Below, piece by piece: positions 51,224-61,790 of a DNA stretch of 64,000 bases; the first letter of the stretch is position 1; each line of letters begins with the position of its first letter. Below the pieces are notes generated by a model. The model was not told where the DNA came from, made no database searches, and worked only from the letters and a program-made list of their open reading frames with translations. The position numbers were made by a program, and so were the translations under genes. Origin of the DNA: Methanocorpusculum labreanum Z. GTDB taxonomy: Archaea > Halobacteriota > Methanomicrobia > Methanomicrobiales > Methanocorpusculaceae. The stretch is taken from contig NC_008942.1 of NCBI RefSeq assembly GCF_000015765.1, positions 1,503,921 to 1,567,920 of the forward strand, in the 5' to 3' direction.

Positions 51224-52804
51224 ATGTACTGTCAACAATGTCAGGAAGCAAAATCTCCCGCCTGCACATCAGGCGGAGTCTGTGGAAAAAACGCCGTGAT
51301 CGCAGCATATCAGGACGCTGTACTCTTTACCCTGTCCGGACTTGCTTATCGGCTGGAATCGGCGGACAAAAATCTGGAACCCTGCGTTCTTGAAGCCCTG
51401 TTTTCAACGCTGACCAATGTCGGGTTTGATAAAAACCGGTTTCTCGGATACCTTACGTGTATCACATCTCACAAAGATGCGCTCCCAACAGTCCCGGGAG
51501 AGCCGGAAGAGTGTGCATGGACGCCAAAATCCGAAGAGGAGATCGTAACCTCCGGGCTTACGGGTCTTGACAAAATCGAGGACATCAATACCCGATCCCT
51601 TTACTCCCTCCTGCTTTTCGGCATCAAAGGGCTCGCTGCATACTATTCCCATGTGGTCGTTCTTGGAAAAACCGACGAGAAGGTTCTGCCGTTCATCAGA
51701 AAAGCACTCGCTTCCCGATTCAAGGACCTGGATATCCAGGAAAGGATCGGCCTTGTTCTGGAATGTGGAGAGATCGGTGTGAAAACCCTCGCTCTGCTGG
51801 ATTCCGCAAACCAGACCTACGGCATCCCGGAGATCACCAGCGTGTCGAGCAAGGTCGGGACGAATCCGGGGATCCTCGTGACCGGTCATGACTTAAAAGA
51901 TCTGGAGCTCCTCCTCAAAGCCACGGAAAATACCGGGATCGACATCTACACGCACGGAGAAATGCTGCCTGCGCATGCATATCCGGGACTGAAGAAGTAT
52001 CCCCACCTGAAAGGCAATTATGGATCATCCTGGGCAAATCAGCGGACGGAACTCCCCAAATTCAACGGACCCGTCCTCTTTACGACAAACTGTCTCGTCC
52101 CGCCGGCAGCTTCCTATGAAAAGTTTGTGTTCACCACCGGAGCGGTCGGATTTCCGGGATGCCCCCACATTGAGGAGAATCCCGACGGAACCAAAGACTT
52201 TAGCGCCCTCATCAGCCTCGCAAAAACCTGCCGGGCTCCCGAAGATCTGCACACTCCCGCGCTTTTAACGGGATGCGCCCATGATGCAGTCGTTTCCCTT
52301 GCACCGAAAGTCCTTGAACTCGTGAATGCCGGAAAAATCAAAAGATTCATCGTGATGGCGGGCTGCGACGGACGTGACAAGAAACGCGAATATTATACCG
52401 AGTTCGCCAAAGCTCTGCCAAAAGATACGATCATCCTCACCGCAGGATGCGCCAAATACCGATACAATTTCCTGGACCTTGGCGACATCGAAGGAATCCC
52501 CCGCATTCTGGATGCCGGACAGTGTAATGATTCCTACAGTCTTGTCGTGATCGCGCTCACCTTGGCAGAAGCATGTAAATGCGGAGTCAATGATCTGCCG
52601 ATCTCCTACAACATCGCCTGGTACGAACAAAAAGCAGTTTTGGTTTTACTGGCACTGCTGCACTTAGACATTAAAGACATCATGCTCGGGCCGACACTTC
52701 CCAACTTTGTTTCGCCGGATGTATTGGATGTCCTGGTGAAAACATTCGGGATCCAGGCAAGCTCCTCGGTCGAAGAGGATCTGATCAAACTGAAGTGTGT
52801 TTGA
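51224..52804 (+). CDS. hcp: Hybrid cluster protein (hydroxylamine/NO reductase)
   Basis: Iron-sulfur protein with the N-terminal cluster cysteines C3, C6, C14 and C20, the spacing of methanogen and anaerobe Hcp. Further conserved parts include HGEMLPAHAYP (cluster ligand), NCLVPP, GAVGFPGC, AGCDGRD, LTAGCAKYR and the closing VDSLPI-like NDLPISYNIAWYEQKAV. It reduces hydroxylamine in vitro and probably NO in vivo. A GGTGA ribosome site precedes the ATG. Regulation by the divergent HxlR protein is likely. Confidence 0.95.
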   Translation: MYCQQCQEAKSPACTSGGVCGKNAVIAAYQDAVLFTLSGLAYRLESADKNLEPCVLEALFSTLTNVGFDKNRFLGYLTCITSHKDALPTVPGEPEECAWTPKSEEEIVTSGLTGLDKIEDINTRSLYSLLLFGIKGLAAYYSHVVVLGKTDEKVLPFIRKALASRFKDLDIQERIGLVLECGEIGVKTLALLDSANQTYGIPEITSVSSKVGTNPGILVTGHDLKDLELLLKATENTGIDIYTHGEMLPAHAYPGLKKYPHLKGNYGSSWANQRTELPKFNGPVLFTTNCLVPPAASYEKFVFTTGAVGFPGCPHIEENPDGTKDFSALISLAKTCRAPEDLHTPALLTGCAHDAVVSLAPKVLELVNAGKIKRFIVMAGCDGRDKKREYYTEFAKALPKDTIILTAGCAKYRYNFLDLGDIEGIPRILDAGQCNDSYSLVVIALTLAEACKCGVNDLPISYNIAWYEQKAVLVLLALLHLDIKDIMLGPTLPNFVSPDVLDVLVKTFGIQASSSVEEDLIKLKCV

Positions 52805-53038
52805 TCACGCACCTTTTTTAATGGACTAACGCGGTGTGATCTCAAATAAAAAAAAACTGACGTAATGATGATCTTTACTTTGATTTCATGTATAGAATAA
52901 GTGTGGATACATGAGTAATCCCACCGCGAATAATCGCGAATCGCATTTTTCTTGTTCCGCCCTCTTGACCTTCGGTCGCGTCCCTACGCTACACCTGATC
53001 GGTTTCGCGTAGCCGGGACGGCGGAACGAAAAATGCTG

Positions 53039-53061
53039 GAAAACCCGCGTCGCGGGTTTTC
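53039..53061. terminator. Central hairpin of palindromic element
   Basis: GAAAACCCGCG, one base, CGCGGGTTTTC: eleven perfect base pairs ending in T4, followed by CTGTTGTTTC. It could end transcription of hcp from the left, about 235 bases after its stop. Confidence 0.4.
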
Positions 53062-53111
53062 TGTTGTTTCACTATTTTTTCTATTACACAAAAAGAGAAG
53101 TTAACGGGGAG

Positions 53112-53133
53112 AAAAACCGGCACGCCGGTTTTT
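53112..53133. terminator. Second hairpin of palindromic element
   Basis: AAAAACCGGC, AC, GCCGGTTTTT: ten perfect base pairs with terminal A and T runs, so it could work in either direction. It lies about 195 bases downstream of the cyclophilin stop. Confidence 0.4.
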
Positions 53134-53327
53134 ACTTAGCATTTTTCCAGCCGGCGTGCGATTCCTGCGTAGGCGATCAGCCGGGGCAGAGCACGACGGC
53201 GCAAGAAAAATGCGATTCGCGTTAATTCGCGGAGATTCGCGGTTAAATAATTTATTGTCTCCACACCCAGTGATACCCCTCCTGAATTGAATCGAGACTA
53301 ACACCGCGTAAGTCCAATAAAAAAAGA

Positions 53328-58400: not shown

Positions 58401-59108
58401 TTACCATAATGCTCTCACATCCTGGTCACTGAGTACGGTCCCCGTGGGAACATGAATCACCGTTATGTGAACTAATGACCCTTCGGTAAATCCGTAGGTT
58501 GTCCTTTCGGTAGTTGGGAAACCAAGGAATCGGTCGATCTCCTTAAACCACCAAATTGTACCGCTTGCGATGGGTGCATTACCGCCAAAGTAGAGTAAAT
58601 CATTCATGCCATAGCCCCATGTTAAACCATTTCCGGTGGTTGCGACAATTGGCTCATTATAAACCTGTGTTTTTGGAACAAAGGGATCATCAGATGCAGA
58701 ATAAAGTGGTGATAAAGCCCAATCGATCCTGGCAGTTCCACCGTTTAAATCAACGCCGTAATCCTCGACCTGTCCAGTGATAGTATGGGTGATAGTCTTT
58801 CCTGCATTCGTGAGGGGAACCCCGTTGTAGGTGTCTGGAACAACATAAGTCGTAATAATTTCCAACTGATTTGAGGTGAATTCTCCAGTAGCAACCGGGA
58901 TTTCACATACAACTCCCGGATAGGAACTCGTTTGGCCGCCGGCATGAATGGTGAAGTCAAAGCCTGCGGAAGGGGCAGGGGTAGCTGCAGAGCCAAGACC
59001 CCCGGCAAATGCTGCGACCAATGCTGCAACAATGATTGTTACAACCAGCATCAGCATAACACCGACAACAGGGGAAACCCCATCGTTTTTTTCATTATCT
59101 GTTCGCAT
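58401..59108 (-). CDS. Archaeal type IV pilin (pilin cluster gene 5)
   Basis: GGAGGTGA five bases before the ATG at 59108 decides the start over an ATG at 59123. Leader MRTDNEKNDG, then VSPVVGVMLMLVVTIIVAALVAAFAGG. Outer domain about 200 residues, ending HIPTG-like VIHVPTGTVLSDQDVRAL, an end shared with genes 1 and 3 of the cluster (HIPTSTVIYDKDVRIQ, HTPSNSVLYSKDVIVA). Shared ends suggest the same fold and subunit contacts. Confidence 0.9.
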   Translation of the reverse strand: MRTDNEKNDGVSPVVGVMLMLVVTIIVAALVAAFAGGLGSAATPAPSAGFDFTIHAGGQTSSYPGVVCEIPVATGEFTSNQLEIITTYVVPDTYNGVPLTNAGKTITHTITGQVEDYGVDLNGGTARIDWALSPLYSASDDPFVPKTQVYNEPIVATTGNGLTWGYGMNDLLYFGGNAPIASGTIWWFKEIDRFLGFPTTERTTYGFTEGSLVHITVIHVPTGTVLSDQDVRALW

Positions 59109-59123
59109 TCTCTTCACCTCCAT

Positions 59124-59777
59124 TCAGTTAATGGTGATTGTTCCTTTCTGGATCTGCTTGCCGGTAATTGTGTCGAATATCGTATAGGTTACCGGAACAT
59201 GTTCCTGAACGACAAATCTGCCGCCCGTTGACGGGGTCCAGAGAAGGAATTTGCCTATTTTAACTGCAGATGCATCTTTTGTGTTGTCGTAATATCCGTC
59301 AGCAAGAAGAATAAATGACTCACCAACCGAAATTGTGGTGTCCAGATTATTGGCAACCGCAAAGTAGGTCTGCTTCGTATTATTTGTACCAGGCATTACT
59401 TCAATAGCTGCCTCATTTACGACAGGACTCGTTTCATCACGATAGATACTCGGATCAAATGTGATCGAAGACCCGTCACTTGTCAACATGATTTTTATCT
59501 TATCAAGCTGAACAGAGTCACCCCCAAGAAGTTTGAAGACAAAACCGTTGTTTTTTGATGCCGATGAAGAATAATCAGGCACGCTGTTCGTTGTATCGGT
59601 ATCAGAAATACCTGCTACATAGGACACATCAAAATTGACGCTTGGCGCGATCTGTTCATCGCTCGTAATGCCGCCGACAAATGCGGCAACTACGGCTGCA
59701 ACGATGATCGTTACAACCAGCATCAGCATAACACCGACAACAGGGGAAACTGCAGAATCATGTTTCATGAATTTCAT
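59124..59777 (-). CDS. Archaeal type IV pilin (pilin cluster gene 4)
   Basis: Starts by an ATGA overlap with the upstream stop. Leader MKFMKHDSA, then VSPVVGVMLMLVVTIIVAAVVAAFVGG. Here the residue before VSP is alanine, not glycine, as also in genes 1 and 3; the peptidase must accept this or cut elsewhere. The ~180-residue outer domain ends TITGKQIQKGTITIN, the end type also of gene 2. Ser/Thr/Asn rich with N-glycosylation sequons. Confidence 0.9.
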   Translation of the reverse strand: MKFMKHDSAVSPVVGVMLMLVVTIIVAAVVAAFVGGITSDEQIAPSVNFDVSYVAGISDTDTTNSVPDYSSSASKNNGFVFKLLGGDSVQLDKIKIMLTSDGSSITFDPSIYRDETSPVVNEAAIEVMPGTNNTKQTYFAVANNLDTTISVGESFILLADGYYDNTKDASAVKIGKFLLWTPSTGGRFVVQEHVPVTYTIFDTITGKQIQKGTITIN

Positions 59778-60463
59778 GCTACGATCACATCCTTGCTGTA
59801 CAAAACACTGTTCGAAGGAGTGTGGATGATTTCAACATGCACGTTTGATCCGATGCTGAAGTCAGTATAGCCGTCATTGATGGTATCACCATCATATTTG
59901 TTAAGGTATTTCAGCTGATTCGCTGAACTTGTCTGACCCATAAGAATATAGGCAGTTCCTTCGTTGCTGTAGGTACTCATTATCGTCCCGGGTGCAAAGT
60001 TGTAGTTGCCGAAGTTTATGGCAGTGTTATCAGTTGCAGCGTCACCATATGCCGCATTTAAGAGAATCGGTACAACGATTTTCTGACCAGTTACCCCAGT
60101 TGAATTGGTAACGGTAATTGATCTGGTATTCATTGCTGTACGATCACCCTTGATAGTTCCAGCCGCTGAACCGGTCTTGGATGTATAATAGGTCAAGATC
60201 CGCAGATCTGATGTGGGGATGGAATCTCCACCTAAATTTTCGATATACATGACACAATCATTTCCGGTATATCCGGAGTTGTAGAGAATTTTTACGTCGA
60301 TCGATGCAACCGGCGCTGCTTCAGATGTTGAAAACAGACCCCCGGCAAATGTTGCCACAAATGCAGCAATAACGATGGTTACAACCAGCATCAGCATAAC
60401 ACCGATAACGGGGGATACTGCGCTGTTTTTTTGTGAATTATGTGTTTTTTTCATAATGTTCAT
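59774..60463 (-). CDS. Archaeal type IV pilin (pilin cluster gene 3)
   Basis: CAGGAG about eight bases before the ATG at 60463 supports the start. Leader MNIMKKTHNSQKNSA, then VSPVIGVMLMLVVTIVIAAFVATFAGG. Outer domain about 190 residues with GYTGNDCVMYIENLGGDSIP, the core motif (F/I-ENxGGD) shared by several cluster members, and the end VLYSKDVIVA. It has a single outer cysteine. Confidence 0.9.
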   Translation of the reverse strand: MNIMKKTHNSQKNSAVSPVIGVMLMLVVTIVIAAFVATFAGGLFSTSEAAPVASIDVKILYNSGYTGNDCVMYIENLGGDSIPTSDLRILTYYTSKTGSAAGTIKGDRTAMNTRSITVTNSTGVTGQKIVVPILLNAAYGDAATDNTAINFGNYNFAPGTIMSTYSNEGTAYILMGQTSSANQLKYLNKYDGDTINDGYTDFSIGSNVHVEIIHTPSNSVLYSKDVIVA

Positions 60464-60480
60464 TGTTCAACACTCCTGTT

Positions 60481-61158
60481 TCAGATATAATCATACACCT
60501 TTCCGGACAGATCACCCGATGCAATTACATTGCCCGTTGATGTATCTTTAAGTGTGTAAACCGTTCCCGGACCAATCTCGAAAAATCCTTCCGAGTATGT
60601 GCCGTCTCTCGTTGCGGCCATGTAGAGCTGACTATACTTTGATGTGTCACTCTGGATAATCCGGTCGGTATAAATGATGAAACGTTCTCCCGGCTCAATG
60701 GTCTGATAAGCAAGATACGTCCCGTATTTCATGGTGACGCCTACCTTTTTCATCCGGTAGTCAACCTTTTTGGCTGATGGTGTAATAGACAGACGGGCTT
60801 CTCCGGGTGTCAGGATGCCGGAAATCGCGGTTGAGGGGGCGTCATTAAACGTAATTGTCGTTTCATTCACAACACCACGGGTATTTTCCTGCAGAGTGAG
60901 CTCCAGATTTGTCAGAACAATGTTTTCACCACCGATATTTTCAAAAAGAAGACCGACTTCGCCTAAAAAGCCGTTTTCAAAATCATTTCCCTGAACAGAA
61001 CCAAGGTAGTTGATCCTTGTCATCGGCGATGCCTCCGTACTTCCTACATAGTTGGCTGCAACCATTCCCACAACTGCTGCAATAATAATCGTTACAACCA
61101 GCATCAGCATAACGCCGACAACCGGGGAGACCCCAGATTCCTTGTTTTTAGACTTCAT
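60481..61158 (-). CDS. Archaeal type IV pilin (pilin cluster gene 2)
   Basis: ATGA overlap with gene 1. Leader MKSKNKESG, then VSPVVGVMLMLVVTIIIAAVVGMVAANYVG. The outer domain contains EVGLLFENIGGENIVLTNLE, again the FENxGG motif, and the end DTSTGNVIASGDLSGKVYDYI. The terminal glycine before VSP is the normal processing site. Confidence 0.9.
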   Translation of the reverse strand: MKSKNKESGVSPVVGVMLMLVVTIIIAAVVGMVAANYVGSTEASPMTRINYLGSVQGNDFENGFLGEVGLLFENIGGENIVLTNLELTLQENTRGVVNETTITFNDAPSTAISGILTPGEARLSITPSAKKVDYRMKKVGVTMKYGTYLAYQTIEPGERFIIYTDRIIQSDTSKYSQLYMAATRDGTYSEGFFEIGPGTVYTLKDTSTGNVIASGDLSGKVYDYI

Positions 61159-61790
61159 TGGATTCTCACATCCTTGTCATAAATGACGGTGCTGGTTGGA
61201 ATGTGAACGATCGTTACATGGAATGTCGTTCCAGTATCAATTCCATAGGTTAATGCTTTCTTAGTATCGAAACCAGTGAAATAATTCAAATCAAAAGCAA
61301 TGGAACTTCCTGAAACCAAATCAGCCTGACCAAAGAGCTGATTGTTTACCGTTCGTTTACTGACGGTCGCATTGTTGTTCGTAATCTGATACACAAACGG
61401 ATAGCCTGCCAGAGTTGTATCAAGATCGTTTTCAGCTACTGGTTCGAGTCCGCCGTCAATCGTGTGGATGATGGTTTCCCCGCCGTGATCCAAATTCTTA
61501 TTGGCAAACTTTACCGGAACGTCATACGATACAGTGATCAGCAAATCTTTCGTCGGCAGAGTATCCCCGGCAATGTTTTCAATCATGGCAGACCCTGGTC
61601 CTATGAAGAGAGAAACATCAAGTGAGGCTGTAGGTGCAGCTTCCGTTGTTGTTCCAATACCCCCGGCAAATGCTGCGACGAGGGCTGCAACAATAATTGT
61701 TACAACCAGCATCAGCATAACTCCGACTACCGGAGATACTGCAGAATCCCGATCGGATCTGTGTTTTTTCAACATCTTTGTTTTTTTCAT
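61155..61790 (-). CDS. Archaeal type IV pilin (pilin cluster gene 1, first)
   Basis: The ATG at 61790 follows GGTGGGGA; an ATG at 61808 is an alternative. Leader rich in Lys/Arg (KKTKMLKKHRSDRDSA), then VSPVVGVMLMLVVTIIVAALVAAFAGG. The outer domain has SAMIENIAGDTLPTKDLLI and ends HIPTSTVIYDKDVRIQ. It heads six genes read leftward. The upstream AT-rich region holds its promoter and that of the divergent surface protein. Confidence 0.9.
   Translation of the reverse strand: MKKTKMLKKHRSDRDSAVSPVVGVMLMLVVTIIVAALVAAFAGGIGTTTEAAPTASLDVSLFIGPGSAMIENIAGDTLPTKDLLITVSYDVPVKFANKNLDHGGETIIHTIDGGLEPVAENDLDTTLAGYPFVYQITNNNATVSKRTVNNQLFGQADLVSGSSIAFDLNYFTGFDTKKALTYGIDTGTTFHVTIVHIPTSTVIYDKDVRIQ

Follow-up and report, generated by a model that had tools for sequence, protein, structure and literature searches.

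The intergenic DNA behind hcp in Methanocorpusculum labreanum Z is occupied by a MITE-like transposon with an unusual interior, which is conserved in structure and sometimes bears genes. The most probable reading (about 0.9) is that this element of ~497 bp is a non-autonomous DNA transposon with IS701-type ends, presumably moved in trans and most simply seen as a gene-less cargo unit. We read it as a non-autonomous transposon because precise empty sites were found, the terminal repeats match those of an IS701-type insertion sequence (IS), and direct repeats flank many of the related elements.

The host genome is a single contig of 1,804,962 bp, which is also the published genome length (PMC3035222). 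The window, i.e., the whole stretch analysed, comprises 64,000 nucleotides (bases 1,503,921-1,567,920). The element lies between two convergent genes, hcp (51224-52804, + strand) and a gene for a cyclophilin-type peptidyl-prolyl isomerase (from 53328, - strand), both named from their translations. Table 1 lists its parts. Reading inward from the ends, tandem CGCGAAT repeats precede a stem-loop arm, behind which come a GC hairpin with perfect pairing and a spacer, and then the mirror image. Elsewhere in the window (58999-61742), several repeats of ~60-90 bp recur at a small number of other genomic sites.

An earlier note, made from the sequence of the window, had placed a nested palindromic element at 52901-53266. 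This extent is too short and misses the outermost inverted repeat, the terminal repeats of Table 1. The components that it listed were recovered: inverted ends (GTGTGGATACA/TGTCTCCACAC), a long inverted repeat (52924-52959 / 53197-53232, 36 nt, 89%) with a perfect 20-nt core (CGCGAATCGCATTTTTCTTG), two smaller palindromes with common borders (GCATTTTTC/GAAAAATGC), which are the two arms, two perfect hairpins, and two plus three CGCGAAT units (CGCGAAT at 52925 and 52935; ATTCGCG at 53215, 53225, and 53235). The perfect inverted repeat of 20 nt is the longest in the element, against a mean of 9.8 and a maximum of 16 in 100 dinucleotide shuffles, and the fold of the whole element is far better than chance (z = -11.3). 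The ORF list holds no ORF of note inside the element, in agreement with the lack of coding capacity reported before; other copies of the family do hold genes. The difference in composition from the surroundings proved to be small (50.5% GC in the element vs. 47.9% in the window).

Table 1. Parts of the element, in window coordinates.
Feature	Position	Strand	Basis or remark
Whole non-autonomous element, ~497 bp	52820..53317	.	~40 genomic loci; precise G016 empty site; terminal-repeat boundaries
Left terminal inverted repeat AATGGACTAACGCGGTGT (consensus AATAGGACTTACGCGGTGT)	52820..52837	+	Common to IS701-type IS L091 (both ends) and same-site IS in G012
Right terminal inverted repeat ACACCGCGTAAGTCCAA	53301..53317	-	Inverse of left repeat
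Terminal GGACTTACGCG	Ends of element 52820..53317		
Left subterminal tandem repeats, two CGCGAAT units, 10-bp period	52923..52941	+	Three units in other copies
Left stem-loop arm, type A, 96 nt, outward-reading	52942..53037	-	Fold; covariation in 21 distinct sequences
Left perfect hairpin GAAAACCCGCGTCGCGGGTTTTC	53039..53061	.	Found in nearly all copies
Central spacer, ~50 bp	53062..53110	.	Similar among gene-less B-type copies; genes instead in cargo copies
Right hairpin GAAAAACCGGCACGCCGGTTTTTA, perfect stem 53112-53133	53111..53134	.	
Right stem-loop arm, type B1, 77 nt, outward-reading	53138..53214	+	Fold; covariation in 36 distinct sequences; covariance model R1
Right subterminal tandem repeats, three ATTCGCG units, 10-bp period	53215..53243	-	

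The search for further copies, which the earlier note had proposed, gave ~40 loci of the family in the M. labreanum genome by BLASTN (an approximate count, made by reading the stretches around the copies). Several relatives also hold the element and no other genus tested does. The same architecture, ends included, was found in three relatives (G003, G012, and G020), while G017 and G019 have it with arms that have diverged. The element is multicopy with palindromes conserved in relatives, rather than a single copy with unconserved palindromes. The window copy has a precise empty site in the relative G016, where the orthologous place reads CACCTTTTTTTTAAAAAAAAAGATTAG. Flank queries, which covered 11 to 12 loci, gave clean empty sites in G016 or G012 for five other copies (L071, L079, L076, L081, and L082). 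Perfect flanking direct repeats of 5-8 bp (modal length 6) were present in 24 of 51 elements with paired ends, taken from the genus and from related ISs, and ~2.6 were expected from shuffled pairing. The remaining evidence on insertion is less tidy and counts against the preferred reading: 25 of the 51 elements have no perfect duplication, and several copies in the M. labreanum genome lack one or both terminal repeats. The window copy sits in T/A runs that make its own target duplication unreadable, with 3 and 1 mismatches in its two terminal repeats. With terminal inverted repeats common to an autonomous element and a small, multicopy, non-coding sequence, the element has the features of a MITE; target duplication together with an empty site is seen at the level of the family, and the window copy contributes a clear empty site. 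The possibility of a non-autonomous mobile element, one of those raised in the earlier note, is thus strongly supported. A comparison of Methanomicrobiales genomes gives zero transposable elements for M. labreanum (PMC2686161), to be set against ~40 copies of a non-autonomous family, some of which are missing in close relatives.

The gene-less two-arm copies lie between convergent genes in 16 of 21 cases, compared with 15% of gene pairs in the window; these counts derive from simple ORF calling and a hand-made list of 21 copies, and the baseline is this one 64-kb window. A similar bias of the pneumococcal BOX, RUP, SPRITE, and IS elements has been ascribed to tolerance of insertions at gene ends (PMC3049150).

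The assignment of the ends to the IS701 type is well supported, and the description "unknown class" no longer applies to them; it is still fair for the interior. The terminal inverted repeats of 17-19 bp have exactly the same consensus as those of an IS701-type IS of 1.1 kb. In G017, a 1.1-kb element (L091) has these ends on both sides plus a DDE transposase (PF13546, PF01609), for which the nearest NCBIfam model is IS701 family NF049921 (1e-62, below the model cut-off). At the same site behind hcp, G012 has the consensus end and, next to it, the C-terminal part of a transposase. In another genus of the order, the terminal sequence of IS701-type copies is TAGGACTTACGC. An exact scan of 84,980 species for an 18-base core of the end returned 28 stretches, and for 24 of these the label is Methanocorpusculum or its family. 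The window element encodes no transposase and does not qualify as an IS701-type IS. Also to be weighed against the preferred reading are the lack of a match in the M. labreanum genome for either IS701-type transposase query and the broken reading frame of the complete IS in G017.

Ends of this type were also seen in other arrangements. Terminal-repeat matches in L122 (record titled Bacilli bacterium STD2_52), L115, L126, and L139 come from MAGs assigned to other groups, by misbinning or transfer; L122 holds a complete two-arm element, and the rest of it matched none of the DNA compared. In L123 (M. parvum XII, 107-146) two IS701-type ends point away from each other within 40 bp. L195 (G019:C6:42600-43600) has IS701-type ends and a single arm, and its outer flanks form a long inverted repeat (ATCACGGGGATAAATATTTTAGAA / its inverse). 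The same ends surround other repeat modules in L113, L116 (6348-6872), L131, and L134.

The interior consists of stem-loop arms of two sequence types, A and B, with two subtypes each. Gene-less copies usually combine two different arm subtypes, and the window copy, with its A arm on the left and B1 arm on the right, appears to be a hybrid of these two lineages. The arm helices are paired at 97.7% in type B (36 distinct sequences) and 98.8% in type A (21 distinct sequences). Base pairs have changed on both sides at 4 (B) and 9 (A) positions, and the covariation score was reached by 0 of 500 shuffles. Run on 120 genomes of the order, a covariance model detected the arms in nine, all from Methanocorpusculum; the arms of G002, G007, G008, G010, and G018, which differ in sequence, lie beyond its reach. 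BLASTN found nothing in G017 and G019 and gave only weak matches in G009. In G017 and G019 the outer stem borders are replaced by GCTGTTATC/GATAACAGC, GCCATTATC/GATAATGGC or GTCATTATC/GATAATGAC, and the tandem repeats at some G017 loci read CGCAGAT. L185 and L195, from these two genomes, have the same IS701-type ends. An exact search of IMG/VR for the tandem-repeat pattern gave no matches. Stem covariation across the genus persists where sequence similarity is mostly lost, and judged from these alignments it means that the arm fold is maintained while the sequence turns over. Covariation shows that a fold is maintained and not by which process, since related sequences easily exceed shuffles and hairpin-templated repair also makes matching changes. 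As a further point against the preferred reading, a passive MITE needs no conserved interior, and the element must therefore do, or have done, something more.

The strong covariation, hairpins with T-runs and the convergent location would all fit a regulatory or terminator RNA element that is selected at gene ends and for which mobility is past history. A slight excess of G-T pairs over A-C mismatches on the outward strand (~10 to 3 events, counted by eye) is a weak hint that this strand is the folded one. We regard this explanation as rather improbable. The presence of the element varies among close relatives at many loci, so that it is dispensable where it is located; the matched changes could come from hairpin-templated repair; and the Rfam matches were weak, all below gathering scores. 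Of the structured RNA proposed in the earlier note, what stands is that the arms form a stem-loop family with a conserved structure and with compensatory changes; its being RNA does not follow, as a DNA cruciform would look identical. The same note offered a replication or segregation site, which in its full form would be an origin or partition site bound by Orc1/Cdc6 or Par proteins. Nested palindromes and motifs phased at 10 bp do resemble protein-binding arrays in a general way, but ~40 scattered copies, the orthologous place without the element in the close relative G016 and the lack of a marked GC-skew turn at the element make such a role extremely improbable. CRISPR, integron attC, and IS200/IS605 were set aside for anatomical reasons, since the arms mirror each other and the ends consist of DDE-type terminal repeats accompanied by duplications.

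In several copies the arms enclose genes. L020, L029, and L034 hold genes for GxxExxY proteins (PF13366/TIGR04256), L009 one for a YdjM-like membrane protein and L021 one for a DUF4062 protein. In UBA424, a single element (L116) combines arms with an IS701 end and a GxxExxY gene, and an element with IS701-type ends in UBA425 (L090/L132) carries an acetyltransferase. The window copy has the arms and no GxxExxY gene. As the same arms enclose genes elsewhere, above all those for GxxExxY PD-(D/E)XK proteins, it would most simply be a gene-less cargo unit. Looked at from the side of these genes, 24 of 31 examinable GxxExxY loci in the order, and 5 of 5 in the M. labreanum genome, have inverted repeats scoring 60 bits or more directly on both sides (swapped flanks, used as a control, had a median of 22 bits and a 90th percentile of 46). 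Three of these five (L020, L029, and L034) have the arm type of the window family, and inverted arms bracket most other GxxExxY genes in Methanocorpusculum. Loci with unrelated arm sequences often resemble the others in layout when judged by eye (a hairpin, an arm with GC borders, and repeats of the GATTCGCG type). In the literature searched we found no published account of the bracketing arms and no functional account of the GxxExxY family. At L020, positions 1-1100 (839508-840588 of the genome) contain a repeat array with ORFs repeating ISIHVPTGGTT, probably a CRISPR array. A further arm class, GGATTTGCCCGAACG...GCAAATCC, surrounds GxxExxY genes at L210, L216, and L242, the last in the M. 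labreanum genome.

From the sequences compared, this bracketing suggests that the arm pairs may be cassette ends recognised by the GxxExxY protein. Carried further, mobility would reside in the arm pair and not in the IS701-type ends: the GxxExxY PD-(D/E)XK protein would recognise the arm fold and move the pair as a cassette, and the window copy would be an emptied cassette that came to lie secondarily within IS701-type ends. Such an origin would accord with the bracketing, with the lack of recognisable IS701 ends at most bracketed loci, with the preservation of the arm fold while arm sequence varies, and with the 9-18 GxxExxY copies per genome in four relatives, several of them as convergent pairs around restriction-type genes. 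The members of these pairs (L227-L238 in G018, G010, G002, and G007) sit at either end of 2-3 kb units with a C5-methyltransferase, an HsdR-like protein or a DpnI-family nuclease. However, the clean boundaries seen are all at IS701-type repeats and none is at an arm. L020, the sole GxxExxY copy with clear unoccupied sites (in four relatives), may have degenerate IS701-type ends. Several GxxExxY loci have tandem repeats alone with no foldback arm, and at loci of other genera the inverted repeats are weak or absent. We consider this origin unlikely. It is likewise doubtful that arm pairs are the ends of an undescribed cassette class with GxxExxY as the hallmark, recognising fold over sequence, with restriction-type and other cargo in Methanocorpusculum and with the dispersed palindromic elements as emptied forms, some of them inside IS701-type ends.

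Under the preferred reading of a non-autonomous transposon, the element is an insertion into the intergenic T-run behind hcp and is missing from a close relative. It would have been moved in trans by an IS701-type transposase of the kind found in relatives and unmatched in M. labreanum now. Its interior is an inverted, mutually divergent pair of stem-loop arms with tandem 10-bp repeats. As for the use of the arms, the likeliest one, a conjecture to which we give less than even odds, is to shield the inserted DNA from transcription that reads through at gene 3' ends. Of more interest than the copy number is the interior arm fold, which compensatory changes preserve throughout the genus, and the arms bracketing most GxxExxY genes of the genus offer a concrete, testable substrate for the putative GxxExxY nucleases.

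Prokaryotic MITEs (PMC10969869, PMC3852290) resemble the element in being <500 bp, gene-less, multicopy, intergenic, and strongly folded, with target duplications and terminal repeats shared with an IS. They differ in that its interior is neither AT-rich nor IS-derived and has two covarying stem-loop arms, which are conserved throughout the genus and in other copies enclose genes. With IS701-type insertion sequences (NF049921, PF13546) it has an identical terminal repeat consensus and similar targets, including the hcp site in G012, but it lacks a transposase and the ends alone are in common. The pneumococcal BOX, RUP, and SPRITE repeats (PMC3049150) are likewise small and folded (BOX is also modular), concentrate between convergent genes, and are thought to be non-autonomous. 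They are bacterial, however, and unrelated in sequence, and the arms of the present element form a mirror pair able to enclose genes. Closest in the interior are the GxxExxY / PDDEXK_3 genes (TIGR04256, PF13366) with bracketing repeats, which have the same arm type at three loci of the M. labreanum genome, where the window copy is gene-less, and, at further loci of the genus, a comparable layout built from other sequences.
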